Source: Halichondria panicea
Lineage: Eukaryota > Porifera > Demospongiae > Suberitida > Halichondriidae
Direction of reading: 5' to 3'
Length of the DNA stretch: 64,000 nucleotides
Assembly (NCBI RefSeq): GCF_963675165.1
Contig: NC_087377.1
Span: forward strand, 3,909,899 to 3,973,898
Position numbers and translations under genes: made by a program. A model generated the notes under the pieces. It saw only the letters and a list, made by a program, of their open reading frames with translations, ran no database searches and was not told where the DNA came from. Of this stretch, positions 3,367 to 63,627 are shown in pieces (position 1 is the stretch's first letter; every line of letters starts with the position of its first letter).

Positions 3367-3813
3367 ATGGCAAGTCCTCACAGTGTAACAAAAGCTGACA
3401 GCATTGATCATGAAGGTATAACAACATAGCCGGCCTGCATGTGACTACTATAGTTCATAGCAGTATAGATCTATACAGTACATTATTCACAGGGGGGGCA
3501 CATATGATTTCAAGGCCTACGCTGAAGGATCTGATGAAAGAACTTGTCTCTGTTGTTAAGTGGCAGCAGCTTATGCTCAATATGGGAATGAAAAACTATG
3601 AAAGCGAGAAGATAAAGGTGAATATCCCAAACGATGTTGATGAACAAAAGCTTGAGGCCTTTAGCAAGTGGTTGAAGATGAAACCTGATGCTTGCTGGAA
3701 GAATGTCATTGATGCTTTGTATGAAATGGATGATCATATCACTCTGGCTAGTATTCTTGCTAGGAAGTACGACTGGAAAGACCCAAGAGTGTATTATATT
3801 AATTAATTAATAC

Positions 3814-3995
3814 CAAGGGTGTATAAAAGAAGAGAGGGCATGCAACTCCAAATGAACACGTGGGCGGATGAATGTGAAATTTATATTTTTAGCACTTCAT
3901 GCAAATGCGCACATTCCTCTGCCCACTTTTGAACTCTGCTAGCTACGTGTACTGATAGTGGAGTTACATGCCCTCTCTTCTTTTATATGCCCTTG
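3814..3995. mobile_element. MITE with CAAGGG termini and 7-bp target duplication
   Basis: Foldback element starting CAAGGGTGTATAAAAGAAGA and ending with the complement (TCTTCTTTTATATGCCCTTG). It is flanked on both sides by TTAATAC (3807-3813 and 3996-4002). Family members: 16437-16668 and the 38-bp derivative at 40782-40819. It lies in DD1 intron 2. Confidence 0.8.
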
Positions 3996-4025
3996 TTAAT
4001 ACTGCATATACCATCATATATAAAG

Positions 4026-4300
4026 TAGAAGAGAGGGATTGGCAACAGAAGTGGTTCACGTGATGTTTCTATACATTGAAGTCAGCTACGTTAGTGAATG
4101 CTATCCGTGTTTTGCTCTAAAACTCCGGGAAACTTATTGTAATCATTTATAATTTGGAAGAGAAGAAAATAATCTTGTTTGTTGTGATAAAAATTAATTA
4201 TATATAGCTAGAAGAATGCACAGTATAAGCCTCGATCAAAACCGCGGGGAAACACAGGTCGGAACTCGAGGTTGCTTCTGTTGCCAATCCCTCTCTTCTA
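4026..4300. mobile_element. Foldback element, arms TAGAAGAGAGGGATTGGCAA
   Basis: TAGAAGAGAGGGATTGGCAA plus CAGAAG at 4026 is matched exactly by its complement ending at 4300. The interior shows no ORF. It lies in DD1 intron 2, just after the CAAGGG MITE. Confidence 0.7.
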
Positions 4301-5346
4301 CTATAATTATCTATATAAATTATGATGTTGGAAAAATTATGTAATCATAATGTTCATGTGCATTAAAACTGTATTACGTGTGTTTGGTATATTTTTTGGG
4401 CTGTATGCATGCAAGTGCCTCTTATGGAGCTCTCATCTCTGCCAGGAAAATTGGTGATATACCTTGTCGAAGATTTCTTCCTAAACTTGATCATGGACTA
4501 GAATACTACACATTTGAAGATGAATCAGTACGACCAATGAATGAAAGGTATAATTATAGGTATTAGCTGGTGACAAAGTGTATATCTGTATCCCCAGATC
4601 AGCAGCAGCAAGGACATCTTTCTTCTCAGATCTCTTACAGACTCGTCCACACCCCTACAGTCTGACCGATTTCTTTAGGAGCATTGAAAAGAGTAACAAT
4701 AAGGGAGACTTCAAAGTTGGACTTGAAGCAAGGTTCTATATAACCCTAATGTATATATAGTCCTTTAAATGTATTTTTATAGGTTTGGATCATTGTACTG
4801 GAAGCTGAACCCGGAGACAATACTTTCCCATACTCAACCAAGCTGGATTGGATCAGATCTAAATTGCTCCAAAAAACAGCTTTCAACCCTCAGTAAGTTA
4901 GTATAATTATAGGTATTTCTTATTCCTACTTCATACAGAGTAGAAGAAACTGATGTTGGGCAATTGTTCACTGGGAGAGAGCAACTTGGGAAAGAGGTCA
5001 CTAGAGTAACCTTGAACTTTGTAGTGGAGGGTCAAGATGAAGGGAGATACTCAGCTGTCATTGCTACGTATGGTGACGGTGATGTCTTTTACCTGGACGC
5101 TGTGTACAGAAAAACGGCCATTGACAAGAGAGCAAGATTAAATATTGCTCTACCGGGATGGTAAGCATCACATAATATATCACTGCTGTTTTCATTCTCT
5201 TTTAGGAAGTATGACTTAATTGAGGATCTCTGATTGTACTGAATGTATTTTGTTGGCTGAGCACGAGAACAGTAAACCATATAAGAATGCCCAAACCATT
5301 GCTAGATCTTTACGCAGACTGTGAGTTGCCTAGAAATACGTTGATC

Positions 5347-6431
5347 TAGCCTCGATCCCAGGCCGAGTTTTCGCTTTTATAACGGTTAGGCGAACAACTG
5401 GGCCTGGTACTAGTTGTCTGCGCATGCGTCAGTCGTTCATCAGATTCTGACGAATGGATATTCTCGTTCACTTTCGTGACATTTATATTCGTGTACTATC
5501 GTGTACTAGAAGTCAGTTCCCGTTTTATCATTATTGGAATCGATTGGAATCGATTGGAATGGCTCTTAGCTGAAGCTTCTCTCTTCTCTGAAGCTTATTC
5601 TGAAGACTGAACAACAAGGGAAGAGGTATAAAGCTTTGTCAAGCTTGTTAAGGTCAGATATTTTTGTGTGGGCCCTATGGCCGGCTATGCTATCAAGTCT
5701 TGTTCATGTTTGGCAAGAATGTAGGTAGACTATAGTTTCATCATTAATATGGTGGATCAAGTGAAGAGTGTGAGCTAGAGAACTTGGTGCTGCCATCATC
5801 AGCTCGTCGACAATGACACTATAACTGAGAAATTTCTACACGTATTTAAAATGTCTACTTCTCTGTACAGGAGCAATGGCTAATATCCAGCTGTCCCAAC
5901 AGTGCTCCTCTTGGCTATACTAACGGACAAGACTGGACAGTTTGAGGTAAGGGTTTAACCGTCTTTGGTTTCTTTTAATATTGTCCTATACTCACAGACA
6001 CAGGACTGGAGTATGACCTGCTCATTCGAGCGTTGCTGGGTAGCTCAGAGACATCAAGAGAATCTACGTTTTCTCAAGCAATGAGTTACGAGTTGGGGCC
6101 TAGAATCAGAGAAGTCCAGCAGCCTGCTAAATCTTTTTGAAACGTAATTTGAAGGCATTCAATCATCCTGAAGTTGCCCTGGGTCACTGTAATTGTGCTG
6201 CAGCACAACTGGCAACTCCCCAGGCCTTTGTGAAGCAGCTCCCTATGTGCATCTTTTGTGTACTCACTCTGTGCATTTTCTGTGTACAAATTTCGATTAT
6301 TGATTTATTAAATATTTTTGCCCACCACAAATATACAATGAAAATTTGACGCATGCGCAGACAACTAGTACCAGGCCCAGTTGTTCGCCTAACCGTTATA
6401 AAAGCGAAAACTCGGCCTGGGATCGAGGCTA
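5347..6431. mobile_element. 1.08-kb TIR element (GCCTCGATCCCAGGCC family)
   Basis: Terminal inverted repeats of about 80 bp begin GCCTCGATCCCAGGCCGAG and run through a shared TTCGCTTTTATAACGGTTAG segment to GCGCATGCG. Both ends sit against TA, compatible with a TA target duplication (Tc1/mariner-like), but the family is not certain. The interior has no recognisable transposase; ORFs of 67-70 aa there look random. It lies in intron 7 of DD1. Short palindromic relatives are at 11929-11970, 59196-59368 and 59472-59578. Confidence 0.7.
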
Positions 6432-8200
6432 ATGTTGATCATGCATGCATCTGAAAAATTGCTACAGTTCCAATAGAAAACTTTGTGTCATTCTCCGTGG
6501 ATCGTCACCAAATAATGAAAGCTCTTGGAAAGTCAAGTACATTCGACAGCGTGCGCAAAGGCAGTACAAATGGAAACCAGAGAAAAAGTGTGTCTAAAAA
6601 GTTCTGTGAAATTGTGTTCTTGATCTGTTATGCTGTATATAATACCACTTTCACTTTCAATGTGTATTTCAATGTGTATATATACATATACAGGTGGATC
6701 TTGGCCTGTTATGATATTGATATCCTTGATTATGAAACAATTCGTGCTGTTGTCGACACTGCCCCACTGAATGAAGGAGTGGACATATTGGAGTTTGACT
6801 ACTCAAGAAAAGAAATCGAGGTATGTCGAGAATGTGCTTGCATGTGTATACAAACGATATTGGCACTATATTATATGCTTGTATTGATGTGTGATATAGG
6901 CACGAGATTACTAATTATGGCCGTACCATAATTATAATGTAACTAAATAATAATATCCCGAAAGCTTTGGGGCCAGAAGATATTCCCAAGAAATGTTGAC
7001 GACACCCACCCCTCACGAGACAAGTACTACTACATGGAAGGGATTGAGGGAGTGCGACTGCCTGGGGGGGAACTCAAGGAGCCGTACAATTGGACCACTG
7101 AGAAACTGTTGGAAAATTTCGAGGAGTTTCTGGGAGATGCTTTCAAGATTGCTCACATCCTCGATGGTTCACCTTACTAATCATTTTTTAGTTTGTCGAT
7201 CACCTATAGTTAATTATCTGTATAATTATATATAGTCAGTACAATACGTGTGTCTCATTCATCTTATCATCATATCAATTCAAATCATAGAGTGTCAGTA
7301 GAGCTTTCATTATGATGCTAAAAATGCATATCGTAAGATGTTATCATGCACTGTTAAATTTACAATGACATAAGATTTCATATAGCAGGTATGCATTTAT
7401 GGAGGTGTGCATATCAGAGAGGTTTTTGGATCATAGTTGGGCAGGATCTATAGGTAACCTATACTGTAGCTGAATCTCCACTTGTAACATTAGCCATGCA
7501 TGGGCCTAGCTATAGTTGTCGACCTAGCATTATTCTAGAGACAAATTGGCCTAGAAACAAGGTTATATGATACAGTCAATAATACAGTCAATAATACTGA
7601 ATGTGATATAATAATTATGCAGGAGAGTGTATACAGTGCACATGCATGCATGCATAGAAAATATAAAACGTATTTTTTAGCCATTGCATAATATATGATA
7701 CCAGGAGTGCACCTGATGATACACATTATATTAAATTTTTCATGTATTATATTTCGTATACGAAAATTAAAACTACGAAATTATTCTACCGCATTAGTTA
7801 CTATCCTGAGCTGTATATACAAAATTAATTATTGAAATAATTATTTAAATGCCTATTGGGTATAGTTCATACGAAAATGTACACCAACAAAAATTATCCG
7901 CTATAATTATGGTATAGGTAAATGATAGAATAATTATATAAGCTGCAACATAATTTTTATTTACCTCCAAAATTGTTCATCGTGCATGGGAAGAATGATA
8001 TCCAAACTATAACCATACCGACGCGTGGTGACAATGTCTCGGACCTTATAGCCAAAAACCGTTCAGTGGTCTTTCCTCACTCGAACTGATTACCCACTGT
8101 ATAACACTGTTTATGATGGTGTATTGTACCTTATTCATTCACCTATAATTATACACATGCAGCACATTTCCATTCCTGTCGTATACATGCAACTATATAT

Positions 8201-8860: not shown

Positions 8861-11471
8861 ATGGCTAGCCCCGGAGTAACAAGAGCTGACAGCATGATTG
8901 TACAGGTTAGTACATTATTTAAATAGCTTCTACGCGATGTAGATCTACGTATACATAATTAATATCTACAGAGGGCACATATGAAGTCTCGGCCCCTTCT
9001 GAAGGACCTGGTGAAGGATCTTGACACCCTTATCGCCTGGCAACTGCTCATGATTAAGTTGGGAGTGGAAAAGTTTGAAAACGATAAGATAGAGAAGAAT
9101 TTTCCAAATGATATTGATCGACGAAAACAGGAGGCCTTTGACAAGTGGTTGAGGATGAAACCTGATGCTTGCTGGAAGGATGTTATTGATGCTCTGTATG
9201 AAATGGAGGAGATCACTCTGGCTAGTGGTCTTGCTAGGAAATACGCCTGGGAAGATCCAAGGGTACGTATTTAAATATGCTACCACTTCATTGCTCATTA
9301 AGCTATGCATACATGCAGGTATACGTAAGCAGCAACTACTTAAGTACCTCTAAGGCTGCTCGTGTCACTGCCAGAAAAATTGGTGATATACCTTGTCGAA
9401 AATTTCTTCCTAAACTTTATCATGGACAAGATTACTACACATTAGAAGATGCTTTAGTGCGACCAATTGATAGAAGGTATTACTCACTCCATATAGTGAC
9501 TGAATATATGTATACCGACACACACAAACACACACATGCAGATCAGCAGAAGTCAGGACAACTTTTTTTTCAGATCTTTTGCTCCCTCGACATCCACGCC
9601 CCAACTTTAACAGTCTGGCCAATTTCTTTAGGAGCATTGAAGAAAATAACAGTAAAAGCGACTTCTTGGTTGGGCTGGAAGCAAGGTAACATTTTAAAGT
9701 GCCGTGCATGGTGATGATTATCTAGTATAAGGTAAGACGTACATCATTGCAGGTTTGGACGTATGTATTTGAAACTGTATCCAGAAAATGTACTTCCTGC
9801 TAACTCAACTAGCAAAGAGTGGACGAAATCCAAGTCACTTCGAAAAGCAGCATTCAACACCCAGTAAGAATTGTTATAAGTGTATTTCTATACCTACCTT
9901 ACATGTACTCAGAGTGGAAGAAGCCGATGTTGGGCAACTGTTTGTTGGGAGGGAGCAGCTCGGGAAAAAGATCACTGAAATATCTGTGAAATTCAAAGTG
10001 GAGGGTCAACATGAAGGGAGATACTCGGCAGTCATTGCTACGTATGAAGATGGTGACATGTTTAGCCTGGATGCAGTGTACAGAGAACCAGCCGTTGATA
10101 AGAGAGCAAGATTAAGCATTGCTCTACCAGGATAGTAAGTTTAATTATAATTAATGTCGCAGTCCTCTTCATTTACCTTATAATTATAGCAAGTATGACT
10201 TGAGGATATCTGATTGTATTGAATGCATCTTGCTAGCTGAACATGAGAAAAGTATACCTTATCAGATGGCCGAATCTATTACTAGGTCTTTGTGCAGACT
10301 GTGAGTTTCCTTTTAACATGTTGATAATGTTGATAACCATTGTAAACATTTATACAGTCCCGCTAGAAAGCTTCGTATTATTCTCCACGGATCATCTCGA
10401 AACAAGGAGAGCATTTGGAAAGTCAACTACATTCGACAACGTACTCAAAAGCAGTACAAATGGAAACCAGAGAAAAAGTAAGTCTAAAGTACACAATTTG
10501 TCTATAGTTTGTCTAAAATTATCTACTTCATAATAGGTGGATTTTGGCCCAGTACGATGTTGATGTCTTTGACTATAAAACGAATCGCACTGTGGAAGTG
10601 CACCCACTGAATGAAGGAGTGGACATTACCGAGGACTACTCTAGAAGTGAAGTCGAGGTTTGTTGTGAATGTCTGTTTTTGTACGTCTAGTAATGTGAAT
10701 ATGCATGTGCTTGAACGTAGCAATTGATAGTATATAAAGCATAATTACATTTCTAAGAAACGGTGCTGCATGATACCATTGTGCAGGTGAATGAATAAGC
10801 TACGACATATCCTTTATATTTCTAGTAACATTATTATTAATAGAATAGCCAAAAATGTTAAGTGGTTAATCGGCTAGAGTAATTCAGAAAAAACCAACGA
10901 TTTTAGGCTAAGGTCTGGGACTTTGTCATGCACACGTGTCGTCTATATAGATACGTATATTGGCTATAATAATGAAGGGTTGCACGAAAGATCAATTGTA
11001 TAGCTATATAGTCGTATACAATTATTAGCTGTCTGACCATGCACATGCAAGGTGAAGCCCATTGTATAATTATGGCAGTTATACTGGTCAGACTATAAAT
11101 TATAGGTATATAGCTAAATACCATTATTGCAAATACACGTTCAAATTAAAGAGCGGATCTTTTATATAACAATAATAATTGATCATGCACAGTATAGTAA
11201 CATTATTCCTTACTGTATAATGGCATTACTGTTACAATAATAATTATCCCCGCAGCTTTGGGGTCAAAAGATATATCCAAGTAATGTTAGTGACACTCAC
11301 CCCTCACGAGACAAGTACTACTACATGGAAGGGATTGAGGGAGTGCGACTGCCTGGGGGGGAACTCAGGGAGCCGTACAATTGGACCACTAAGGAACTGT
11401 TGAGAGATTTCGAGGAGTTTCTGGGAGATGCATTCAAGATTGCTCACATCCTTGATGGATCACCTTACTGA
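8861..11471 (+). CDS. DD2: Death-domain protein, apparently intact, 512 aa
   Basis: Exons: 8861-8905, 8972-9262, 9319-9476, 9542-9685, 9753-9863, 9913-10134, 10190-10300, 10358-10477, 10537-10657, 11256-11471 (TGA), total 1539 nt, open throughout. Residues 20-106 form a Death domain with W38, the DKIEKNF turn, W74 in EAFDKWL, W83 in CWKDVIDALY and a final LARKY helix. Residues 113-512 are a conserved region of unknown function with motifs IGDIPCRKFLPKL, SLANFFRSIE, EGRYSAVIATYEDGD, YDLRISDC, QKQYKWKPEKK, WILAQYDVDVFDY and YYYMEGIEGVRLPG. No signal peptide or membrane segment is evident, so it is probably intracellular. Exon 1 lacks 1 nt relative to DD9 and exon 2 lacks 2 nt, which together restore the frame across intron 1. 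Subfamily with DD3 and DD9. Death-domain role in signalling is family knowledge; the pathway is unknown. Confidence 0.85.
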
Positions 11472-13484: not shown

Positions 13485-15280
13485 AGTTGTAAACACTGAT
13501 GAGGTAATAGTTAGCACTGGCTATTTAGCAATTAATTATATACCATTTGTAATACCATAGAGTAATTTCATTCTAGACACATGGCTAGCCCTCAAGTAAC
13601 AAAAGCTGCCAGCACTGATGGTAGGTCTACAGGTTGGTAAATTTTTAATCTATAGATCTACGTATAATTATCTGCTTTTAATATTCAAAGATGGAGCACA
13701 TATGAAGTCTCGGCCCCTTCTGAAGGATCTGGTGAAGGATCTTAACTCTATTGTCAATTGGCAACTGCTCATGATCAATTTGGGAGTGAAAAAGTTTGAA
13801 AACGATAAAATAGAAAGTAACTTCCGGTGCGATATTGATCGACAAAAACAAGAGGCCTTTGACAAGTGGTTGAGGATGAAACCTGATGCTTGCTGGAAGG
13901 ATGTCACTGATGCTCTGTATGAAATGGAGGAGATCACTCTAGCTAGTAGTCTTGCTAGGAAATATGACTGGGAAGATCCAAGGGTACGTTATTCAATTGT
14001 TTATTAATATGCTACCGCTTCAATTGCTATACTTTTGTTGTTGCATACATACAGGTATACGTAAGCAGCAACTACTTAAGTACCTCTAAGGCTGCTCACG
14101 TTACTGCCAGGAAAATTGGTGATATACCTTGTCGAAGATTTCTTCCTAAACTTGATCTTGGACTAGATTACTACACTTTAGAAGATGCTTTAGTGCGACC
14201 AATTAATAGAAGGTATTACTCACTCCATATAGTGACTGAATATAATGTATGCCGACACACACATGCACACACATGCAGATCAGCAGCAGTCAGGACAACT
14301 TATTTTTCAGATCTTTTACTCCGTCGACATCCACGCCCCAACTGTTACAGTCTGGCCGATTTCTTTAGGAGCATTGAAGGAGATAACAGTAAAAGCGACT
14401 TCAGAGTTGGGCTGGAAGCAAGGTAACATATTAAAGTGCCATGGTGATGATTTTCTATAGATAAGAAACATTTTACATCATTGAAGGTTTGGACATTTGT
14501 ACTTGAAACTGAATCCAGAAAATGTACTTCCTGCTAACTCAACTAGCCAGGAGTGGATAAAATCCAAGTCATTTCAAAAAGCAGCATTCAACACCCAGTA
14601 AGATGCTATTGGTAGTGTATTTCTCACCTTACATGTACTCAGAGTGGAAGAAGCCGATGTTGGGCAACTGTTTGTTGGGAGGGAGCAGCTCGGGAAAGAG
14701 GTCACTAAAATATCTGTGAAATTCAAAGTGGAGGGTCAACATGAAGGGAGATACTCGGCAGTCATTGCTACGTATGAAGATGGTGACATGTTTTACCTGG
14801 ATGCAGTGTACAGAGAACCAGCCATTGAGAATAGAGCAAGGTTAAGCATTGCTCTACCAGGATAGTAAGTTTAATTATAATTGATGTCGCAGTCCTCTTA
14901 ATTTCCCTTAAATATAATAGCAAGTATGACTTGAGGATATCTGATTGTACTGAATGCATCTTGCTAGCCGAGCATGAGAACAGTATACCCTATCAGATGG
15001 CTGAAACTATTACTAGTTCTTTGTGCAGACTGTGAGTTGCCTTCTAACACGTTGATAATGTTGATAATGTTGATAATCACCTATTTTAAACATTTATACA
15101 TGCAGTCCCGCTAGAAAGCTTCGTATTATTCTCCACGGATCATCTCGAAACAAGCGGAGTATTTGGAAAGTCAACTACATTTGACAGCGTATTCAAAGGC
15201 AGTACAAATGGAAACCAGAGAAAAAGTAAGTCTAAAGTACACAATTTGTGCTATAATTATGTTATAGTTGTGACACACAT

Positions 15281-15395
15281 GCACGAGTGCCACATGGGAT
15301 ATATTGGCTCAGTAGTGACATAGGCCCGAGGGCCGCAGGCCTCGAGGGCAAAGGCACTACTGAGCCAATATATCCAATGTGCGCACGAGTGAGCT
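15281..15395. repeat. Hairpin, arms ATATATTGGCTCAGTAGTG
   Basis: ATATATTGGCTCAGTAGTG at about 15299 is mirrored by CACTACTGAGCCAATATAT at about 15355. Between them is a GC-rich stretch (GGCCCGAGGGCCGCAGGCC). Outer sequence GCACGAGTG recurs on both sides. It lies in DD3 intron 8. Confidence 0.65.
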
Positions 15396-15625
15396 GTGTA
15401 ACAACTGATTTGTTGCATTCCTTGTGCATTCCTTTCCGTGTACATCACTCCTTTTATAGGATAACTAGTTTCAACTACTTGTGGTGGCTGTGGAATGCAC
15501 CAGACGCATAAAAACATTTTCTGCCTACCACTGAATCTGTTTAACAGTGTTATACTATAAAAGGGACCGTTTCAGGTTACTGGGTGGAGGGTGGGCTTTA
15601 GGTAACTTCAGCCACCATACTATGC

Positions 15626-15728
15626 CAGTATCTAGATAGTGGCACAGTTCAAGGCTTGACCTATTCCAGTATCTAGATAGTGGTACAGTCAAGGTATCTA
15701 GATAGTGGTACAGTTCAAGGCTTGACCT
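15626..15728. repeat. Tandem repeat, unit about 30-45 bp (TATCTAGATAGTGG)
   Basis: GTATCTAGATAGTGG[CT]ACAG occurs three times, twice followed by TTCAAGGCTTGACCT. It lies in DD3 intron 8 and is absent from the same intron in DD2 and DD9. Confidence 0.65.
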
Positions 15729-16436
15729 GTGCCATATGGCAGATATTGGCACAGTGTTTCCTTTGATCTGCCCACTCAAAATGCAACAAGCACTGATAAG
15801 TTTTGTCCATGCCAAAATATATCCACCTCATAATAGGTGGATTTTGGCACAGTACGATGTTGATGTCTTTGACTATAAAACGAATCGCACTGTGGAAGTG
15901 TACCCACTGAATGAAGGAGTGGACATTACCGAAGCGGACTACTCTAGAAGTGAAGTCGAGGTTTGTTGCGTGAATATTCTGTTTTTGTACGTCCAATTTA
16001 TATTAATGTGTATATGTGTTTGAACGTAGTTGTTATGTGTAAAGCATAATAATTACATTACTAAGAAATTGTGCTGATATCAGTGTGCAGGTGAATGAAT
16101 AAGCTACAACATAATTATATCAGTCTGAGAAGAAAATAGCTGTATGACAAACCTACACAGTTCTGTCTCTATCTAGCTAGCTATATAGCTCTGCATGTGT
16201 ATGATTTTTAGGATATTTTCTCTGATGAATCCAGTATTATAGGAAATTTTACGGCATGCGCAAGCAGGTCTTCTTTTCTATGAAGGCCGGTGAAGGAGGC
16301 TACTATAAGTGCTGCTAACGCTTACGATATTCACTATTAATTTTAGTAGCAATTAATGCAGGGATGCAACAAATAGGGTAAAGTAATATAAACATTTTAA
16401 ACACACGCATACGTTATAATAGCTACAACATAATAT

Positions 16437-16668
16437 CAAGGGCGTATAAAAGAAGAGAGGGCATGCATGCATGCATGGAACAGCAAATGATCAAATGTGG
16501 GCGGATAAATGTGCATGACTGCATGTGCATGAAATACTAAAAAATAGAAATTTCTATTTTTAGCACTTTATGCAAATGCACATATTCATTCGCCCACGTT
16601 TGAACTCTGCTATAGCTACTTGTACTGATAGTGGAGTTGCATGCCCTCTCTTCTTTTATACGCCCTTG
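16437..16668. mobile_element. CAAGGG MITE, second copy
   Basis: CAAGGGCGTATAAAAGAAGA at the left and the complement at the right, with the same interior (TTTTTAGCACTTTATGCAAA) as 3814-3995. The flanks are AT-rich and a clean target duplication is not visible. It lies in DD3 intron 9. Confidence 0.75.
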
Positions 16669-17644
16669 ATATTATAGTATACAATGAACATAAATTATAC
16701 ACTATAGTACAGTCAAATTCGTTGTGGCTAACAAGATTATTCTATTCTGTGGTTGCACGTGGAAAAAAGAAAAATTTGTAAATTCAAGAATGTTCGACAT
16801 TTGTATAGGGCACCATGCAGGGAGAAACAATCAAACGCGTTATCAGCCACACATGTACAGAGCACTTAACCACTTTGACACTTCCGCAACACTGTGCATG
16901 ATAAAGACGCTCCCCATGCATCCCCTCATAATTATGCTCCTGCATGGTATACTGTCTATTGGAGTTGCATACTCTTTTTTGATGCTATAATTACACAGTA
17001 ACATGCATGCACTATTCATTACCATAATTATTATCATACAATGGAATTACTGTTACAATATCCCGGCAGCTTTGGGGTCAAAAGATATATCCAAGAAATG
17101 TTAGTGACACCCACCCCTCACGAGATAAGTACAGCTACTACATGGAAGGGGTTGAGGGAGTGCGACTGCCTGGGGGGGAACTCAGGGAGCCATACAATTG
17201 GACCACTGAGGAACTGTTGAAAGATTTCGAGGAGTTTCTGGGAGATGCATTCAAGATTGCTCACATCCTCGATGGGTCACCTTACTAAACTAAAATGCTT
17301 TCTTTCTTAGTTTGTTGAATATTGAATTCTATATAGTTATATAGCTGTTGTAAGTTAGACCACAAATCATATATTCTCGGTTCAAAGTATATACAGTCAG
17401 TAAAATAATTATCTCTTTTGTAATGATATCCTGTCAGAGTTTTCAAAGCCGGTGCATGGTGGTTATTTAATTTTCAATCCTCATTCTCACAAATTTGCCT
17501 CTTTTATTGCCACTGTAATAGCTCAAACTGTTCTTAGACTTATAGATTTGCGTTCTTTATATATATGCTATACCTCACAGGCCTAGCAGATCCATCGAAA
17601 CTACAACTGACACGTTAGATAATATATAGTGGGAATAGACTCAG

Positions 17645-17980: not shown

Positions 17981-18010
17981 AACTTGACTAGTAGAAGAGT
18001 CTATAATCGA

Positions 18011-20284
18011 ATGGCTAGCTATCAGGGCGTAACAAGAGCTGTTAGCAGTGGTCATGAAGGTTGGTACATCTTGTATATCTTCATTACATCAGTTTTTGTG
18101 TAGTCTGTGGGTTATTTACTGTGGCTAAAATATTCAGAGAAGCCACATACGAAGTCAAGGCCTACGCTGAAGGATCTGATGAAGGAACTTGACCCAATTA
18201 ATAAGTGGCAACTGCTCATGATTAATTTGGGAGTGAAGAAGTCTGAAAATGATAAAATTGAAATTAATTTCCGGTGTGATATTGATCGGCAAAAACAGGA
18301 GGCTTTTGACAAATGGTTGAGGATGAAACCTTATGCTTGCTGGAAGAATGTCATTGATGCTCTGTATGAAATGGAGGAGATCACTCTAGCTAGTAGTCTT
18401 GCTAGGAAGTACGCCTGGGAAGATCCAAGGGTACGTATTATATGCATGTACAATTAATAATTATACTGCCATGCATGCATAACATTTTACACGCAGGTAT
18501 CTGTAAGCCGCAACTTCTTGAGTGCCACTATTGATGCTTGTATCACTGCCAGGAAAATTGGTGATATACCGTGTAGAAGATTTCTTCCTAAACTTCGTCC
18601 TGGGCTAGAATACTACACTCTGAGAGATGAATCGATACACTGGCAACCAAAAATTGACGAAAGGTATTACTATTGTGATATTGAAGGTATTGCACTGCAT
18701 CATTCTGTTACCCTTGCACATGCCTGCACACACAGATCAGCAGCAGCAAGGGCAGCTCATTTCTCACGTATCATACTGACTCCACATCCCCACAATCTGG
18801 CCAGTTTCTTTAAGAGCATCGAAAATAGTACAGTAAGGGTGACTTCAAAGTTGGACTTGAAGCAAGGTGAAATTGCAAACGTTTATTTGTGAGTGCTGCT
18901 GATCTAAAAAAAGAACTTGACTTTTCAGGTTTGGACATATGTACTTGAAAATGAACCCAGAACAAAGTGTACTTCACGCAAACGCAGCTAGATCTAGACA
19001 GGAATGGATAAAATCCAAAATGCTTTCAAAAATGACTTTCAACACTGAGTAAGATGCAAAATTTAATAGCTATAATATACATGCATTTTGACTGTTTATC
19101 CAATTCTCCGTGCTTAAAATTATTGCTTACTTTTCTCAGAGTGGAAGACGCTGATGTTGGGCAATTGTTCACTGGGATGGAGCAACTTGGGAAAGAGGTC
19201 ACCAGAATTACCTTGAAGTTCAAAGTGGAGGGTCAAGATGAAGGAATCTACTCAGCTGTCATTTCAACGTATGAAGATGGTGATATGTTCTGCTTGGATG
19301 CTGTGTACAGAGACACAGACACGAAGAATAAAGCAAGATTAAATTTTGCTTTACCAGGACTGTAAGTCAACAATAATTATTAATTTTACGCTTGTTTTCA
19401 CTCTGTCTCTTTAGAAAGTATGATTTGAGGATGTCAGAATGTTCCGACTGCATCTTGTTGGCTGAACACCAAAACAGTAATCCATATCAGATGGCCCGAA
19501 CCATTACTGATACTTTATGCAGACTGTGAGTTGCCCTGTTATTATTTAGTTTGAATTATTCTGATTTGCTACTATATATAATTTCCACAGTCCTTGTAGA
19601 AGACTTCGCGTCATTCTCCATGGATTATCTCTAAACAAGGAATTTCAAAGCTCTTGGAAAGTCAAGTACATTCGACAGCGTGTTCAAAAGCAGTACAAAT
19701 GGAAACCAGAGAAAAAGTATAATAGTCTAAAGTTCACAGTTTGTGTTTTATTGTGTGCAATATACACTGTACACGTCAATATACAGGTGGATTCTGGCCC
19801 GGTATGATGTTGATGTCCTTGACTATGACACAAAGCAAGCTGTTGTTGACTCTGCCCCACTGAATAAAAGAGTAGACATTGAGTTTGACTACTCAAGAAA
19901 GGAAGTCGAAGTATGTTGTGAATGCCTGCTTGCCTATATATATATATATACCAGCTATATATATAGTTGTAATGTATATTACAATTTAGAGATACTGATG
20001 CGTAGTGTACACATGCAGTAAACATAACAACAATTTGCACTATGCCATAATTTATGTATTCCCGGCAGCTTTGGGGCCAGAACATATTCCCAAAAAATGT
20101 TAGTGACACTCACCCCTCACGAGACAAGTATTTCTACATGGAAGGGATTGAGGGAGTGCAGCTACCTGGGGGGGAACTCAGGGAGCCGTACAATTGGACC
20201 ACTGAGGAACTGTTGAGAGATTTTGAGGAATTTCTTGGAGATGCATTCAAGATTGCTCACATCCTTGATGGGTCACCTTACTAA
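18011..20284 (+). pseudogene. DD4: Death-domain family gene with frameshift in exon 4
   Basis: Exons: 18011-18059, 18138-18430, 18497-18663, 18736-18866, 18929-19048, 19140-19361, 19415-19525, 19591-19716, 19787-19910, 20069-20284 (TAA). Exon 4 is 131 nt, one short: AATAGTACAGTAAGG where other copies read AATAGTAACAGTAAGG. The shifted frame meets TGA at 18946-18948 in exon 5, leaving the Death domain and about 50-100 residues. Everything downstream is otherwise open, including the FALPGL, RYDVDVLDYDTKQ and KIAHILDGSPY blocks, so the lesion is recent or is an assembly error. Exon 4 is flanked by phase-2 introns, so its removal would restore the frame. Compact introns and no large insertions. 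Closest relative in the window is DD11 (shared YRDTDTKNKARLN). Confidence 0.75.
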
Positions 20285-23800: not shown

Positions 23801-24455
23801 TGTTTATATAGCCTTCATGCACACAACAAGTTATTAGCTTTAACAATGGAAGACTTCGATGTTAAAGCTTCGTTGTCGTATAAGCTTGAACTTGCACGTT
23901 GGCCTCTAGCTTCTACATGCGCCTTTTCCTCAAGGTAAATATTTGCAGCTGAAGTGACCCTGTACCAGGAACGAAAAAATGTCATTGCTCATGCTACTTG
24001 CTATACTTAGCCTGTTTCTCCATGCTTCTACTATAAAAATATTTAGCTGAGGGTTAGCACTTTAGCTGCTCTAGTATAATTATTATAGCACTTCATGCAT
24101 GTATAACAGATATCTGTACAATTGGTTATTGATCGTATTAATGTATATATGCTGTATAGGCATAACAGTAACGTTATTGATGAATATATAGCCAGGAGCA
24201 CATGCAGTACTATAACTCTAACTTTAACTTTCCCTTCAGCTTTGGGCTCAGAAGATATTCCCAAAAAACATTAGCAGCACCCACCCCTCACGAGACAAGT
24301 ACTACTACATGGAAGGGATTGAGGGAGTGCGACTGCCTGGGGGGGAACTCAGGGAGCCGTACAATTGGACCACTCAAGAACTGTTGAGAGATTTCGAGGA
24401 GTTTCTGGGAGATGCATTCAAGATTGCTCACATCCTCGATGGATCACCTTACTAA
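20900..24455 (+). CDS. DD5: Death-domain protein, apparently intact, 511 aa
   Basis: Exons: 20900-20939, 21010-21302, 21357-21514, 21573-21707, 22002-22112, 22172-22393, 23230-23340, 23393-23512, 23598-23727, 24240-24455 (TAA), total 1536 nt, open throughout. The N-terminus is MANLQGAVINDHEG rather than MAS. The Death domain (exon 2) has GGKKSENDKIEINF and EAFDKWLRRKPDACW. The remaining 400 residues are the family's unknown module (NARITARKIGDIPYRRF, EGRYSAVIATYEDGD, DYYDTKQAVVDSAPL, NWTTQELLRDFEEF). Intron 2 is 54 nt, has no stop and is a multiple of three, so its retention would give an uninterrupted 187-codon ORF over exons 2-3. Intron 6 (836 nt) and intron 4 hold insertions. Its recent duplicate is DD10, which has decayed. 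Confidence 0.85.
21728..21852. mobile_element. Degenerate ACCGTATAGCGGG-family element in DD5 intron 4
   Basis: ATAGCGGGAATTGTTCAC near the left and TTTCTCGCTATACAGTATA at the right retain the termini. The same insertion is present in DD10 intron 4 (50602-50734), so it predates that duplication. Confidence 0.55.
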
Positions 24456-31241: not shown

Positions 31242-37372
<6,131 letters not shown>

Positions 37373-49800: not shown

Positions 49801-50601
49801 ATGACAAACCTTCAGGGAGCTGTCATCAATGATCATGAAGGTTGGTTAATAGCAATTGTTATTTATATACTTGTACTGTATTCACAGGGAAGTCAGATAT
49901 GAAGTCGAGGCCTACACTGCACTGAAGGATCTGTTGAAGGAACTTGACTCCATTGTCACCTGGCAACTGCTCATGATCAATTTGGGAGGGAAAAAGTCTG
50001 AAAACGATAAAATAGAAATTAATTTCCGGTGCGATATTAATCAACAAAAACAGGAGGCCTTTGACAAGTGGTTGAGGAGGAAACCTGATGCTTGCTGGAA
50101 GGATGTTATTGATGCTTTGTACGAAATGAAAGAGGTCACTCTGGCTAGTCGTCTTTCTAGGAAGTATGACTGGAAAGATCCAAGGGTACGTATAAAGCTA
50201 TATCCTTGGTATATTATACACTTCTACATACTGCAGGTATATGTAAGCTGCAACTTCCTAAGTGCCTCTTATAATGCTCGCATCACTGCCAGGAAAATTG
50301 GTGATATACCCTATCGAAGATTTCTTCCTCCACTTGATCATGGACTAGAATACTACACAGTTGAAGACGAATCAGTACAACCAATGAATGAAAGGTAAAG
50401 CACCATAATAACAAAGTATAATCTTAACCTGCACACACATGCACACAGATTAGCAGCAGAAAGGACATCTCGATTCTCACGTATCTTACTGAATTATCCA
50501 CGCCCTTACAGTCTGTTCGATTTATTTAGCCGTATTGAAGAATGTAACAGTAAAGGAGACTTCAAAGTTGGACTTGAAACAAGGTACCGTGTAATTTAAA
50601 T

Positions 50602-50734
50602 ACCGTATTATTATAGCGGGAATTGTTCACTAATTGGCTCAAAACCCCTCAGAAGAAACGTTTGTTCTTTTTTAATTTTTGCGCTAATTCCTGCTCTGCC
50701 CTCGAAAAGCTCAAAAATTTCTTGCTATACGGTA
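50602..50734. mobile_element. Degenerate ACCGTAT-family element in DD10 intron 4
   Basis: Same insertion as 21728-21852 in DD5; here ACCGTATTATTATAGCGGGA and TTGCTATACGGTA ends are slightly better preserved. Confidence 0.55.
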
Positions 50735-52050
50735 TAACAATTTTTAGCTGTAAACATTATTAATATTATGAGATGATATGCTCATGTATATGACACTGCA
50801 ATAGGACTTGATGATAAGATCCAAGTTTTAAAATTACAGTACAATCCAATCAGTTCAAGGTAAAATGATACTCTTTAACAGGTTTGGACGTTTGTACTAG
50901 AAACTAAAGCCAGAGATGATACTTCCTGCTAACTCAACTAGTGAGGACTGGATAAGTTCTAAATTGCTCCGAAAATCAGCTTTTAGCACCGAGTAATATG
51001 CAAAATTATACATCGTTTCGACTGTTTGTTATTCTTATATACTTTAACCAGAGTAGAAGAAGCCGATGTTGGGCAACTGTTCATTGGGAGAGAGCAGCTC
51101 GGGAAAGAGGTCACTAAAATATCTTTGACGTTCAAAGTGGAGGGTCAAGGTGAAGGGAGATACTCGGCAGTCATCGCTACGTATGAAAATGGTGACATGT
51201 TCTATCTGGACGCTGTGTACAGAAAACCAGCCACTGAGAAGAGAGCAAGATTAAATGTTGCTCTACCAGGACGGTAAGTAATCACATATCACAGTATAAT
51301 TAAAGCAGTGAGTCTAATTTTACTTAACAAGGACGTACGGTTTATTATTGGACCATGCACTATTGATGTGAAAGAATTGATTTGCTAACAATTATAGATT
51401 GTTGAATATTGATCATGGCACTCTAGTGCCTAGTCCATGAGTCCTGATTGTCTGTGCTCTAACTCTCTCCTGTTGTTGCCTCCTTTGCTCAGCTCTCAGT
51501 TTACGAGCCGCCTCTCGAGAGCTCTTGACAAGATCACAGCACTGTCTCCATACATAATTATAAGTGTCACTTAATCTAACCAGCACTTACATTATAAGCA
51601 CTGAATTGCTATCCCTCGCGGCTGTTGACATAAAACCAGTGAGCGTTGAAGCCGGCTAAGATACATGTAGCTATATATACTCCACTTGGGGTCTGTATCG
51701 TAGCAACTAGGTGGGGTTTAACTACCATAAACCCCAGCCCTGGAGCCTTGCCTTGAGGGAGCACTGATTTTATACTAGATCTACACAGCCAAAAAGAAGC
51801 TAGACACTTGTTGACAAGGGCAGGACAGAAGGGTGGGACTCACTAAACATCAGGAAGGCTGGAGGATGGGTGGGGCTCACTGCTTGGACATTGACAAGTT
51901 GTGCGTTGAGCTAGAAGCTTAGCGCTGGCTTCAAGCTTATACGCACATGTCAAGCTTTTTGTTCGTTTTCAATAGTTTTTGAGACTGTTTGCTAGTTGTA
52001 TCCAAGGTGAGGTAGCTTAGGTAGCAAGTACTTTTCATTCAAGTGGGTAT

Positions 52051-52186
52051 ATAACACTTATTGTTCACTATATATTATACATTCGAATTTATGGCAAACG
52101 TAAACCATCCTTGGCCTTGGGGCTTCGCCCTCGTCCTCGGAGGTTTACTGCCATAAATTCTGATGTAGTGGACAATAAGTATAACG
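52051..52186. repeat. Foldback, arms ACTTATTGTTCACTA / AATTTATGGCA
   Basis: CACTTATTGTTCACTA and AATTTATGGCAAACGTAAACC are mirrored by GGTTTACTGCCATAAATT and TAGTGGACAATAAGT. It is absent from the corresponding DD5 intron 6. Confidence 0.6.
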
Positions 52187-52391
52187 TAAACTATAGAAGC
52201 ATGCTGAAACTTTTGAGAACTGAGTCTTAGTGGTGCATGAGACATGTACTGTGCATGGACTAGAAATCACAGCAAAGTCAGCAAAGAAGCCCGGAGTCGA
52301 AGATTTATTTTTATGGCTCGTAATAGTTATGTTCTGGGAGCAACAAACTACGATTTTAGCATTCTATATAGACCTATGGGGCCCTTCCATT

Positions 52392-52488
52392 GTTGCCGCG
52401 ACCTTTATTCGAGGTACTCATTTGCTATTCGAGGTATTCATTATTTTGCAGCTGCAAATGAATACCTCGAATAAAGACCGCGGCAACA
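52392..52488. repeat. Hairpin TTGCCGCG...CGCGGCAA
   Basis: GTTGCCGCGACCTTTATTCG and GAGGTATTCATT are mirrored by AATGAATACCTCGAATAAAG and ACCGCGGCAAC. DD5 has only TTGTTGCCGCTATAATTATA at the homologous spot, so this inserted after the duplication. Confidence 0.65.
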
Positions 52489-54325
52489 AGTTCAAGCTTC
52501 TTAGCTTTTGCTCGCTAAAAAGCTTTATTATCAAAATCTGTTACTACGAAAAACTATCATGATTACCGCTATTATATGGTATCCAGGTCCGATATATCAG
52601 AAACATGCAAGACAAACATAAAACCCAACGACTACAGTAGACCTAGCTGAGGCTCCATCCGAACACGTGATATTTCCGGTTTAACTAAGCAATTATAAAT
52701 TTAACAATTAAAGACACTTTGCACGTACGTATACATGAACGTATACATTAATGTTAAAAGCTATTACTGTGGCCAGAAGGTAAAAGCTGCGCTAGCTAGA
52801 ATTACTGTCCTTGTAATGCATGCATGCCCAATTTCGACACTGTGAAACACGTGTTGTAGCTTCCACATTATTTCGCTCCCACACGCCACACTACTTTTTA
52901 TCTTAGGAAATATGCCTTGAGGATATCTGACTGTACTGAGTGCATCTTGCTGGCGGAGCACCAAAACAGTATACCCATATCAGATGGCCCGAACCATCAC
53001 TGATGCTTTATGCAGACTGTGAGTTTTCTATATGCATGTTGATCACCTGATAACCCTTAAACATTTCCAGTCCTAATAGAAAACTTAATGTCATTCTTTG
53101 GGGCTCATCACCAAACAATGAGAGCTCTTGGAAAGTTGAGATCATTCGACAACGTGTGCAGAGGCAGTACAAATGGAAACCAGAGAAAAAGTATGTCCAG
53201 AGTTTGTTACAAATGTGTACATTTGTCACATAATAATTATATTGTACTTTCTATGCGTCAATGTATATTACAAATTATGCAGGTGGATTTTAGCCCGGTA
53301 TGATGTTGATGTCTTGGACTATTATGACACAAAGCAAGCTGTTGTTGATAGTGCGCCACTGAATGAAGGAGTGGATATATTGGAGTTTGACTACTCAAGA
53401 AAAGAAGTCGAGGTACGTATGTTGTGCCTTTAGTTACTAAACCAGCAAAATAATGTTACAGTAATGCTCTATTGTAAGCATGTGCATTATTGTTTATATA
53501 TAGCCTTCATGCACACAACAAGTTCTTAGCTTTAACAATGAAAAACTTCGATGTTAAAGCTTCGTTGTCGTATAAGCTTGAACTTGCACGTTGGCCTCTA
53601 GCTTCTACGTGCGCCCTTTTCTCAAGGCACATATTTGCAGCTGAAGTGATCCTGTACCAGGAACGAAAAAATGTCATTGCTCATGTTAATTTACTTGCTG
53701 CTACTTATCCAGCTTATATACATGCTTGCTTCTACTATAGCTGAGGGTTAGCACTTTAGCTGCTCTAGAATATTTTATAGCACTTGCATGTATAACAGAT
53801 AACTGTACAATTGGTTATTGATCGTATGAATGTATAATTATATGCCTTTAAATTGTATAGGCATGACAGTAACGTTATTAATGAATATATAGCCAGGAGC
53901 ACATGCTTCTGCTATACATGCAATATTACGATAACTCTAGCTTTAACTTTCCCTGCAGCTTTGGGCTCAGAAGATATTCCCAAAAAACATTAGCAGCACC
54001 CACCCCTCATGCACGAGACAAGTACTACTACATGAAAGGAATTGAGGGAGTGCGACTGCCTGGGGGGAACTCAGGGAGCCGTACAATTGGACCACTGAGG
54101 AACTGTTGAGAGATTTCAAAGAGTTTCTGGGAGATGCATTCAAGATTGCTCACATCCTCGATGGGTCACCATGCATACTGAACTATAATCTCTGTCATAC
54201 AATTTTTGGTTTATTGAGCAATTACTATAATTATATAGTTATATTTAGACTACATTACATCATCTGTAATTGATCTGATTGGCTAAAAACAGTAGATTAC
54301 ATGGAAGCATAATCTACAAGAAAGT

Positions 54326-59186: not shown

Positions 59187-59195
59187 AGTGTTAGC

Positions 59196-59826: not shown

Positions 59827-59870
59827 ACGCTACATCTAGATATAACTTCAATAGAGACTCAGAGTCTAAA

Positions 59871-62119
59871 ATGGCTAGCTGTCACAGAGTAACAAGATCT
59901 GTCAGCATTGATCATGAAGGTTGGAACATCTTTGTGACTTCTCTAATTATATAAAAGTATTCCATAGAGAAGCCACATATGAAGTCAGCGCCTGTGCTAA
60001 AGGATCTAATGAAGGAACTTGTCTCTGTTGTCAACTGGCAACTGCTCATGATCAACATGGGAGTGGAAAAGTTTGAAAATGATAAGATAGAAATTAATTT
60101 CCGGTGCGATATTGATCGACAAAAACAGGAGGCCTTTGACAAGTGGTTGAGGATGAAACCTGATGCTTGCTGGAAGGATGTCATTGATGCTTTGTATAAA
60201 ATGAATGATATCACACTAGCTAGTAGTCTTGCTAGGAAATACGACTGGAAAGACCCAAGGGTACGTACAATTATACTATTATGCATTAAATGTGTGCGCA
60301 CATGCAGAAATTTGTAAACTGGAGTTTTTTAAGTGCCTCAAAGGCTGCTCGCATCACTGCCAAGAAATTAGTGATATTCCGTGTCGAAGATTTCTTCCTC
60401 ACATTCGTCCTGGAAGAGATTACTACACCTTAAGAGATGAATCAGTGCAACCAATAATTGATGAAAGGTATAATATCATACTGTACTATACTCCATTATT
60501 ACACTGCTGTTGTACTCCCCCCCCAACACAACACATACACAGATCAGCAGCAGCCAGGACAAAGCGATTCTCACGTATCTTACAAACTATTCCACGCCCC
60601 CACAGTCTGGCCGATTTCTTTAAGAGCATTGAAGATAGTAGCAGTAAGAGTGACTTCAGAGTTGGACTTGAAGCAAGGTAAATTTATTTGCAAGTGCCGT
60701 AGTATGCTGAATAAAGCAAATTTTTTCAGGTTTGGACATGTGTACTTGAAAATGTACCCAGAAAGTGCAGAACGTCACACAAACTCAACTGAAAAGGAGT
60801 GGATAAGTTCCCAGTTGCTCAAAACAACATCTTTCAGCACTGAGTATTACTTTTTACTATAATTATAGTTTGATTGACTGTTCTGCCATGCTTACTCTAT
60901 ATACTCAGAGTGGAAGAAGCTGATGTTGAGCAACTGTTCACTGGAAGGGAACAGCTCGGGAAAGAGATCACTAGAATAACCTTGAAGTTCAGAGTAGAGG
61001 GTCAAGATGAAGGGGTCTACTCAGCTGTCATTTCAACGTATGAAGATGGGGATATGATCTACCTGGATGCTGTGTACAGAGATACAGACACTAAGAATAA
61101 AGCAAGATTAAATGTTGCTTTACCAGGACAGTGAGTATATCATAATAGTGATTGATGTTGCTTTCTGTTTCTTTCTTCTTTTAGGAAGTATGATTTGAGG
61201 ATGTCAGAATGTTCTCAGTGCATCCTGTTAGCTGAGCACCAAAACAGTAATCCATATCAGATGGCTCAAACCATTACTAATGCATTGTGCAGACTGTGAG
61301 TTTTTTGCCACCAGTTGTGCTGGTCATTTGATAATTTCTACAGTCCGAATAGAAAGTTTCGTGTCATTCTCTATGCGTCCTTTCGAAACAAGGAAAGCAC
61401 TTGGAAAGTCAAGTACATTCGACAGCGCGTGCAAAGGCAGTACAAATGGAAACCAGAGAAAGGGTATGTCGAAAAGTGTATACAGTTAGTGTTTTACTGT
61501 GTGCAATACATGCATGCATGGGTACCACGTTTACTCAATGTGTGTACACGTCAATATACAGGTGGATTCTGGCCCGGTATGATGTCGATATCTTAGACTA
61601 TGACACAAAGCAAGCTGTTGTTGACTCTGCCCCACTGAATGAAGGAGTGGACATTGAGTTTGACTACTCAAGGAAAGAAGTTGAGGTTTGTTGTGACTGC
61701 ACTGTACACCAGCTAGTAGTGTATAGTATGACTGTGTAATGTACAACCTAGTATGTTTATGCAGGACTATATATGGCAATTTAGAGATCGATGCACATGT
61801 GTATACACATGCTGTAAACATAACGGAATTTTGCATAAATTATACTCAATTATTGTAGTGGTGGAATGCATTGCTGATTATAATAGTGGTATTTTCCCGG
61901 CAGCTTTGGGGTCAAAACATATTCCCAAGAAATGTTAGTGACACCCACCCCTCAAAAGACAAGTACTACTACATGGAAGGGATTGAGGGAGTGCGACTGC
62001 CTGGGGGGGAACTCAGGGAGCCGTACAATTGGACCACTGAGAAACTGTTGAAAGATTTCGAGGAGTTTCTGGGAGATGCATTCAAGATTGCTCACATCCT
62101 CGATGGGTCACCTAACTAA
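59871..62119 (+). pseudogene. DD11: Death-domain family gene with 1-nt deletion in exon 3
   Basis: Exons: 59871-59919, 59968-60260, 60308-60467, 60543-60677, 60730-60843, 60909-61130, 61185-61295, 61344-61463, 61562-61685, 61904-62119 (TAA). The single visible lesion is in exon 3: GCCAAGAAATTAGTGAT where the family pattern needs AAAATTAGTGAT, a base lost in an A-run. The frame breaks right after the Death domain. All other exons are open and well conserved (SLADFFKSIED, EGVYSAVISTYEDGD, RYDVDILDYDTKQ, KIAHILDGSPN). A homopolymer slip in one exon of an otherwise clean gene is exactly what an assembly error would look like, so DD11 may be functional. Exon 3 cannot be skipped in frame. DD4 is its closest relative here; the final residue is Asn instead of Tyr. 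Confidence 0.7.
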
Positions 62120-62470
62120 AATGCCTTCTGTCAATTTTTTAGTTTATTGAACACTTAACTATTGTGTACGTCAGATAGACCACAAAGCACATAAAGTGGT
62201 GTGTGGTGTAATTATTAAATATTTGTATAAAGAATTTTCAAAGTGTACGGTGACTATTTTTAATCCTGAATTCCCAACACTTGTTTTATTTCTACTGGGA
62301 AGCCAAAGTTGCATGACGCCCACTCAAAGCTAGTGCTAGCCCCACCCCACTTTCTAAAAGAGGTTGTGTCACCTTTGTTTTTTGGAGGCAACAGAGGGCT
62401 TGCTGCTCATCTTGTTTTACGTTGCTAGCTAGAGCAGCTAGCAGCTAGACTACTCGAGAGTGAGTTTAAA
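62120..62470. other. Spacer DD11-DD12
   Basis: No gene. GAAGCCAAAGTTGCATGACG and CCCACTCAAAGCTAG match the spacer before DD4 (about 17870), followed by AGCCCCACCCCACTTTC at 62338, a weak version of the conserved upstream block. Confidence 0.45.
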
Positions 62471-63627
62471 ATGACTAGCCTGGCTCAGGGAGTAACAAGA
62501 GCTGTCATCAAAGATCATGAAGGTTGGGAAATCTTTGAGTCTGTGCTATAAATTATAGCCAACAAAATTTATCCACAGAGAAGCCAGATGCATGTATGAA
62601 GTCTACTCTAGGCCTATGATGAAGGATCTGATGAAGGAACTTGTCTCTGTTGTTGACTGGCAACTGCTCATGATCAACATGGGAATGGAAAAGTATGAAA
62701 ACGACAAGATAGAACGAAATTTCGGGTGCGATATTGATCGACAAAAACAGGAGGCCTTTGACAAGTGGTTGAGGAAGAAGCCTAATGCTTGCTGGAAGAA
62801 TGTCATTGATGCTTTGTATGAAATAGAGGAGATCACTCTAGCTAGTAGTCTTGCTAAGAGGTACAACTGGAAAGATCCAAGGGTACGTACCGTGATTTAT
62901 AACTGCTACAATAACTCTCAGTTTATGGCTGTAATTAAATTGCTACCCTTATAATGTTTGCGGTATGTATATAGGTATATGTGAACAGCAGCTTTCTAAG
63001 TGCCTCTTATTGTGCTCGCATTACTGCCAAGAAAAGTGACTGTATACCTTGTCGAAGATTTCTTTCTCAACCGGCTTGTGGACTAGAATACTATACCTTT
63101 AAAGATGAATCAGTACGACCAATTAATGAAATGTAAGGTATTTTGCTAACTCTATGGTGATAGAGAATTGCATTGTACCCACACACAGATCAGCAGCAGC
63201 CAGGACAAAGCGATTCTCACGTCTTATACAGACTCATCCATATCCCTACAGTCTGGCCGATTTCTTTAGGAGCATTGAAAATAGTAGCAGTAAGGTTGAC
63301 TTCAAAGTTGGACTTGAAGCAAGGTATATAACTTATCGTTAACACAAGCTAGTGCCTTTTTTTGTACAGGTTTGGACATTTGCACTGGAAAATGCATCCA
63401 AGGGCACTACTTCCCCCATACTCAACTAACCAGGAGTGGATAAGTTCCCAATTGCTCCGAAAAACAACTTTTAACCCTCAGTAAGTTACAATTAGAGACA
63501 TGCACTTTTCATGCATTTACTTACACAGTGTGGAAGAAGCTGATGTTGAGCTACTTTTTGCTGGGAGGGAGCTGCTCGGGAAAGAAATCACCAGATTGCT
63601 CACATCCTCGATGGGTCACCATACTGA
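62471..63627 (+). pseudogene. DD12: truncated Death-domain gene, exon 6 fused to exon 10 tail
   Basis: Exons: 62471-62522, 62579/62581-62882, 62975-63132, 63189-63323, 63370-63480, then 63529 into a junction at about 63593-63595. Exon 2 has a 5-nt excess near AAGTCTACTCTAGG, but using the acceptor two bases downstream (CAGAG, exon from 62581) restores the frame and gives MYEVYSRPMMKDLMKEL before a normal Death domain. Exon 6 reads VEEADVELLFAGRELLGKEITR and then runs directly into AGATTGCTCACATCC of exon 10, in a different frame, so exons 6 (rest) to 10 (most) are deleted. AGA is common to both parents, suggesting a microhomology join. The 3' flank resembles that of DD6/DD7. A Death-domain-plus-exons-3-5 protein could still be made. 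Confidence 0.8.

Follow-up and report, generated by a model that had tools for sequence, protein, structure and literature searches.

Which protein is encoded by the tandem gene array on contig NC_087377.1 of the sponge Halichondria panicea, and what could this protein do? The window, that is, the whole stretch of 64,000 nts that was analyzed, covers positions 3,909,899 to 3,973,898 of the forward strand (C1:3909899-3973898) in an assembly of 131 Mb and 39 contigs (GCF_963675165.1). A previous sequence-only reading described a twelve-copy head-to-tail array of ten-exon genes, five of them open end to end, which carry a Death domain at the N-terminus of an unfamiliar region. The window does contain this array, with consistent gene models, a Death domain in exon 2 and selection acting on the encoded protein. 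For the C-terminal part, the most likely reading of the sequence comparisons is a divergent, probably non-catalytic triphosphate-tunnel domain. The protein has approximately 500 residues. Exon 2 encodes the Death domain, which follows a short N-terminus; exons 3-4 encode a variable linker, and exon 10 a near-invariant C-terminal tail. Between linker and tail, from the last part of exon 4 to approximately exon 9, lies a divergent barrel of triphosphate-tunnel type, which is supported but not shown.

To model the copies, we used a self-written protein-to-DNA spliced aligner on 19 units picked from matches to the Death exon and to exon 10. Twelve copies (W1 to W12; Table 1), all on the forward strand, lie between position 3367 (ATG of W1) and position 63598 (last aligned base of W12), in agreement with the sequence-only reading. 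The ten-exon layout was also recovered, as exons 2-10 with recurrent GT-AG intron borders are present in 11 of the 12 copies (W12 breaks off within exon 6), and W2, W5, W6, W7 and W9 are indeed open end to end. The local expansion of Death-domain genes turned out to be larger than proposed: three further copies follow downstream on the same contig (D13, D14 and D15), three are found on C8 (K8a, K8b and K8c) and one on C12 (K12), giving 19 copies in the genome, nine of which are open over the exons found. Outside the window, D13, D14, K8b and K12 are open (for K8b and K12 this refers to exons 2-10, as their exon 1 was not detected), and D15, K8a and K8c are disrupted. Some of the one-base breaks could be assembly errors.

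W9 was taken as the reference model, with exons of 46, 293, 158, 144, 111, 222, 111, 120, 124 and 213 nts plus the stop codon and, as calculated from these lengths, intron phases of 1,0,2,2,2,2,2,2,0; intron 1 of W2 was modelled in phase 0 (exon 1 of 45 nts). Introns are mostly ~45-115 nts long, except for intron 9 (144 to 2270 nts in W1-W11) and other long introns in single copies. W4 was dropped as the reference gene on account of a frame shift in its exon 4 relative to the remaining copies. Its path looks open if a donor 22 bases downstream (GTGAGT; region 18736-18888) is used, and this copy is either a rescued pseudogene or the result of a sequencing indel.

Ten of the 19 copies are disrupted or truncated and fragments of the family occur elsewhere in the genome, as would be expected if the array were a decaying expansion whose duplicates were retained by drift or dosage, with no special immune role and with some of the breaks being real pseudogenes. 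We regard this explanation as improbable: the nine open copies pooled have 0.44 synonymous (dS) and 0.15 nonsynonymous (dN) substitutions per site, a ratio of 0.34, and open frames persist even in well-diverged copies (dS up to 0.65). Because of this pooled ratio, together with the Death profile cut-off passed by exon 2 in all copies tested (see below), the array is not a product of chance. Among the open copies, dN/dS is highest in exon 1 (1.85, an exon of only 15 codons), followed by exon 3 (0.80); the smallest values are those of exons 7 (0.20), 10 (0.22) and 2 (0.23), and exon 5 has 0.32. In a test of nine pairs sharing no copy, many of which include disrupted copies and whose p-values are uncorrected for ten tests, exon 10 has the lowest nonsynonymous-to-synonymous ratio (N/S; 0.69 versus 1.59 elsewhere, p 1e-4) and exon 7 is also low (p 0.04), whereas exon 3 (p 0.011) and exon 5 (p 0.003) are highest. 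The excess in exon 5 is absent among the open copies and may stem from the broken ones.

The exon-2 frames of ten window copies (all but W8 and W10) were compared with the Pfam Death profile PF00531, and all ten exceed its cut-off of 22.6 bits (22.9-32.8 bits); seven of the nine full-length open proteins match Death at E up to 5. An AlphaFold2 model of exon 2, built from ten window copies, has six helices and a mean predicted local distance difference test score (pLDDT) of 80.9. Foldseek matched this model to 73 chains in the PDB at E up to 10; among the best 50 of the 73, ranks 1-41 are Death-domain entries (FADD, Fas, DR3, TNFR1, RIPK1, ankyrin, RAIDD, TRADD, p75NTR and others) and ranks 42-46 are CARD entries. 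The best E is 0.022 and the template modelling (TM) score reaches 0.71, with no PDB match reaching E 0.001. It is thus well supported that exon 2 encodes a real Death domain at the N-terminus; lack of Death-fold similarity, an outcome that the sequence-only reading had named as refuting it, was not observed. As a separate observation, a different, Death-like exon was noticed by eye in a forced spliced read on C8 between K8b and K8c (~28.5 kb into the reversed 60-kb stretch C8:5385000-5444999).

No NACHT, LRR, TIR, caspase or kinase domain was detected in the nine spliced open proteins at E up to 5, as had been proposed from the sequence. The genome is rich in NACHT matches (at least 102) and has at least 148 Death matches among 150 candidates scored, and the array genes could be imagined as decoys derived from nucleotide-binding leucine-rich-repeat receptors (NLRs) after loss of NACHT and LRR. 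The nine proteins retain no trace of either domain, and the ten-exon layout comes with a C-terminal part of its own; an NLR origin was rejected on the former ground and is highly improbable, and the family does not look NLR-type.

What, then, is the C-terminal part? Its description as unfamiliar stands insofar as no second Pfam domain passes its cut-off, but not entirely, since one family, PF02940, recurs below the cut-off. PF02940 is the beta chain of the mRNA capping enzyme, a Cet1-type RNA triphosphatase (RTPase) of triphosphate-tunnel fold, with a curated cut-off of 24 bits. It was matched by four of the nine full-length open proteins at E up to 5 and by eight of 15 C-terminal pieces at E up to 10 (the pieces came from 15 of the 19 copies, W4, W10, W12 and K8c being left out), always under the curated cut-off. 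The best match is that of D13 (E 1.1e-4, 22.5 bits, residues 25-178 on profile positions 11-170), followed by D14 (E 8.7e-4, residues 28-187 on 15-179); both are co-linear over ~155 residues and include motif A, while W9 matches in the motif A part only (E 0.036). Yeast Cet1 scores 277 bits on profile positions 2-221, and profile coordinates can therefore be transferred to the sponge copies; by these, the motif A strand of Cet1 (...IELEMKFG) aligns to ...KVGLEARFG in the sponge. A second comparison by hhalign, between the family alignment and segments of four solved RTPases (1d8h, 4pn0, 6l7v and 3bgy), gave a score of 26.7 (P 0.0018), which no shuffle of the template columns (200 shuffles, best 19.7) or of the query columns (150 shuffles, best 19.6) reached, and which exceeds those of a reversed template (16.8), a reversed query (15.3) and a Death template (14.7). 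The nine open copies alone gave 26.2, and scores of 23.8, 21.1 and 30.2 were obtained without 1d8h, 4pn0 and 3bgy, respectively. The aligned stretch, A-R-L-x-I-A-L-P-G-x-K-Y-D-L-R-I-S ... C-R-L-P-D-[RK], agrees in register with the Pfam match. Taken at the level of profiles, homology of the C-terminal part to the tunnel fold appears likely. Other candidates, namely DUF7905 (one of the 15 pieces, E 0.0031), DPPIV_rep (two of 15) and PilY1 (one of 15), were rejected for few copies or low complexity, and PDB matches at E 1.1-2.4 (plant secretory protein, endoglucanase, TetR and acetylcholine receptor) were regarded as chance; NCBIfam gave no match for two proteins.

Several results weigh against this interpretation of the family. 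Seven of the 12 window copies are broken, and in full length W9 (19.8 bits), W7 (21.5 bits) and W5 (no match) fall under the PF00531 cut-off. On the C-terminal side, even the best PF02940 score lies below 24 bits, seven of the 15 pieces (those of W5 and D15 among them) have no match at E up to 10, and full-length W5, W7, K8b and K12 give none. The Trypanosoma cruzi segment (6l7v) carries much of the four-segment score, which drops to 17.7 without it, and the four segments exclude motif A; therefore, the Pfam and hhalign tests overlap in part only. With Cet1 and Pct1 alone, hhalign gave P 0.03-0.07, a score reached by three of 150 shuffles; a plain Cet1 and Pct1 hidden Markov model (HMM) ranks the copies no higher than shuffles, and the family HMM places Cet1 61st and Pct1 319th among shuffles. 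No RTPase in the PDB was found for the family profiles at E up to 10. Finally, both the ligand and the signalling discussed below are inferred. A search for PF02940 exon by exon across this genome found no match, and its controls gave none either.

An alternative is that the triphosphatase likeness is spurious and the C-terminal part an unrelated, undescribed beta-rich domain of a receptor or adaptor for some ligand, as all PF02940 matches are under the cut-off, the direct profile tests with the two yeast enzymes failed and the PDB holds no RTPase match by sequence. We consider this unlikely, although it is the most serious of the alternatives, given that two methods concur on the register and pass shuffle controls and that the motif A spacing fits; a profile made of only Cet1 and Pct1 is too thin to settle the matter.

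We also examined the positions of the active site. In excerpts from PMC10201420, Cet1 E305, E307 and E496 are described as binding the metal in known enzymes, and a change of any single one as inactivating (excerpts of PMC4641920 are a further source on the triphosphatase active site). According to profile coordinates and inspection by eye, the E305, E307 and K309 positions correspond to Gly210, Glu212 and Arg214 of W9, and the same three residues occupy them in all 18 copies examined (W12 left out), so that the full set of three metal-binding glutamates is not present. The strand of E496 was placed by eye (...I-x-E-F-D-Y-S); Asp436, found in 18 of 18 copies, is perhaps its counterpart, and Glu434 is found in 16 of 18. 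An active triphosphatase effector, which would use a rearranged metal site to hydrolyze RNA 5'-triphosphates, nucleoside triphosphates or polyphosphate and be brought to a signalling complex by its Death domain, could draw on the E307-like Glu, the K309-like Arg and this acidic strand, all largely or fully kept. Catalytic activity is doubtful because all 18 copies have Gly where Cet1 has E305, a change of the very kind that inactivates known enzymes, and we give the effector only a small chance. Since neither the PF02940 cut-off is reached nor the metal triad complete, the family was not classed as a Cet1-family enzyme.

The history of the last exon differs from that of the rest of the gene. 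Exon 10 has a low dS (0.22), and its tree conflicts with that of exons 2-9: W2 is nearest to W8 in exon 10 (0.977) and to W3 in exons 2-9, and exon 10 of W11 is nearest to that of D15. The simplest reading is that the last exon has undergone gene conversion or been exchanged between copies. Over exons 2-9, K12 clusters with W2, W3 and W9; therefore, copies have moved between contigs. By appearance, exon 10 looks homogenized in eleven window copies (for example, 11256-11468, 20069-20281 and 41201-41413).

Table 1. Gene copies of the array and selected features (positions in the window)
Feature	Position	Strand	Description
W1	3367..7180	+	disrupted, two frameshifts; degraded exon 3 plus an extra break
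W2	8861..11471	+	open end to end, 10 exons
W2 exons 1-5	8861-8905, 8972-9262 (Death), 9319-9476, 9542-9685, 9753-9863	+	
W2 exons 6-10	9913-10134, 10190-10300, 10358-10477, 10537-10657, 11256-11468 + stop	+	
W3	13581..17288	+	one stop, in exon 8
W4	18011..20284	+	ten exons; one frameshift, exon 4 frame-shifted versus other copies
W5	20900..24455	+	open; exon 1 20900-20939, Death exon 21010-21302
W6	25513..29982	+	open; exon 1 25513-25564, Death exon 25639-25934
W7	31242..37372	+	open; exon 1 31242-31278, Death exon ~31327-31625 (read from sequence)
W8	38973..41416	+	disrupted, three frameshifts
W9	44593..48861	+	open; reference model
W9 exons 1-5	44593-44638, 44697-44989 (Death), 45051-45208, 45267-45410, 45464-45574	+	
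W9 exons 6-10	45623-45844, 45898-46008, 46066-46185, 46252-46375, 48646-48858 + stop	+	
Motif-A-like strand of W9	45388..45410	+	F207 to R214; the codon of Arg is completed in exon 5, where F-G follows
W9 exon 10	48646..48858	+	the family's most conserved exon; dS low, tree in conflict with that of exons 2-9
W10	49801..54174	+	disrupted, three frameshifts and one stop
W11	59871..62116	+	one frameshift, exon 3
W12	62471..63598	+	truncated in exon 6

Several other features were noticed in the window and the genome. W7 has long AC repeats in two introns (31896-31964 and 32244-32398), and a 21-base minisatellite at 56664-56792 (97% matches) reads as repeated LEERRWW within an open frame of 187 aa. 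An integrase core of a mobile element (PF24764, E 1.5e-83) lies upstream of the array on the minus strand (L040:2996-4300). D15 is flanked on either side by single-exon open frames of 709 and 712 aa on the minus strand (L042:4313-6439 and L043:5528-7663), which are alike by eye and have no Pfam match at E up to 0.01; an exon-10 fragment of the family is also found near D15. A stray exon-6 fragment is located at ~5.12 Mb (L053, C1:5123754-5123960), and the region downstream of it in a forced spliced read is kinase-like by eye. PF01331, the guanylyltransferase part of the capping enzyme, has matches at C8:4403485-4403751 and C2:8410879-8412306 (G000). Silicateins are marked by a serine replacing the cathepsin cysteine, and two such motifs were seen in silicatein-like exons, CGASYAF near C2:659 kb and CGSSYAF near C6:200 kb; that the host is a siliceous sponge is therefore very probable.

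How might such a protein work? The explanation that we tentatively prefer, at somewhat less than an even chance, is that the tandem genes encode a family of receptors in which a Death domain is combined with a triphosphate tunnel that lacks catalysis and may sense 5'-triphosphate RNA. As Gly replaces the first metal-binding glutamate in every copy examined, the tunnel would bind the triphosphate group without hydrolysis, or hydrolyze it very slowly. Binding of a ligand, such as uncapped 5'-triphosphate RNA, would cause the Death domains to assemble, and the assembled domains would recruit Death adaptors for antiviral or cell-death signalling. The innate immune or cell-death role suggested by the sequence-only reading is a plausible prediction. 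A broader proposal, which we offer as a possibility less probable than the receptor family itself, is a class of animal innate sensors in which a non-catalytic tunnel would read uncapped 5'-triphosphate RNA (or another triphosphate) and signal directly through the fused Death domain, the tandem array combining a linker that varies with a last exon that is converted and near-invariant. The pairing of a Death domain with a seemingly worn-down RNA 5'-end (triphosphatase) enzyme could, by prediction, make these proteins sensors of foreign RNA. If true, a sponge protein that fuses a tunnel-type domain with a Death domain would connect RNA 5'-end chemistry to cell-death signalling in a way that was not expected, and it would be a candidate, open to direct testing, for an RNA sensor of an early animal lineage.

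With regard to known systems, the exon-2 domain resembles Death-domain adaptors and receptors (FADD, DR3, TNFR1 and RIPK1) in its fold, with the TM score given above, but the Foldseek E-values are 0.022 or worse. The partner domains of these four proteins are different from those of the sponge family. The literature search found no protein combining Death and triphosphate tunnel and no sponge mRNA_triPase. No relatives of the family were found in viral contigs, in one scan of bacterial and archaeal genomes or in phage records (best phage E 4), and a viral scan with Cet1 and Pct1 as queries had no match; among these collections and the present assembly, the family has so far been seen only in this sponge genome. 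Sponge genes of the NLRD type (Death-NACHT-LRR), of which 25 are described in excerpts from PMC12909245 for Dysidea avara along with 128 DEATH genes, likewise combine a sponge host, an N-terminal Death domain and expansion, but the array proteins are devoid of NACHT and LRR. Tunnel-type RTPases are described from fungi, protozoa and DNA viruses, and metazoan RTPases as cysteine phosphatases, in the portion of PMC4791841 consulted. The sponge family shares with the Cet1-type enzymes (Saccharomyces cerevisiae Cet1, Schizosaccharomyces pombe Pct1 and the T. cruzi RTPase) a co-linear profile match from motif A to the YD-h-[KR]-IS region and a second match from this region to R-x-x-D-R. It differs from them in its scores under the curated cut-off, the Gly at E305, the joined Death domain and, by eye, ~30 extra residues before the R-Y-D-V-D-V strand. 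A further parallel is the trypanosome pair RESC1 and RESC2, tunnel proteins in which, as excerpted from PMC10201420, two of the three metal glutamates are absent and of which RESC2 binds 5'-triphosphate RNA. RESC2 may serve as a model for the proposed mechanism, not as evidence that the sponge protein does the same. The RESC proteins, unlike the sponge family, act in kinetoplastid RNA editing, and the likeness, drawn here by description, lies in an RTPase-like tunnel with loss of metal residues, one glutamate being lost in the sponge.

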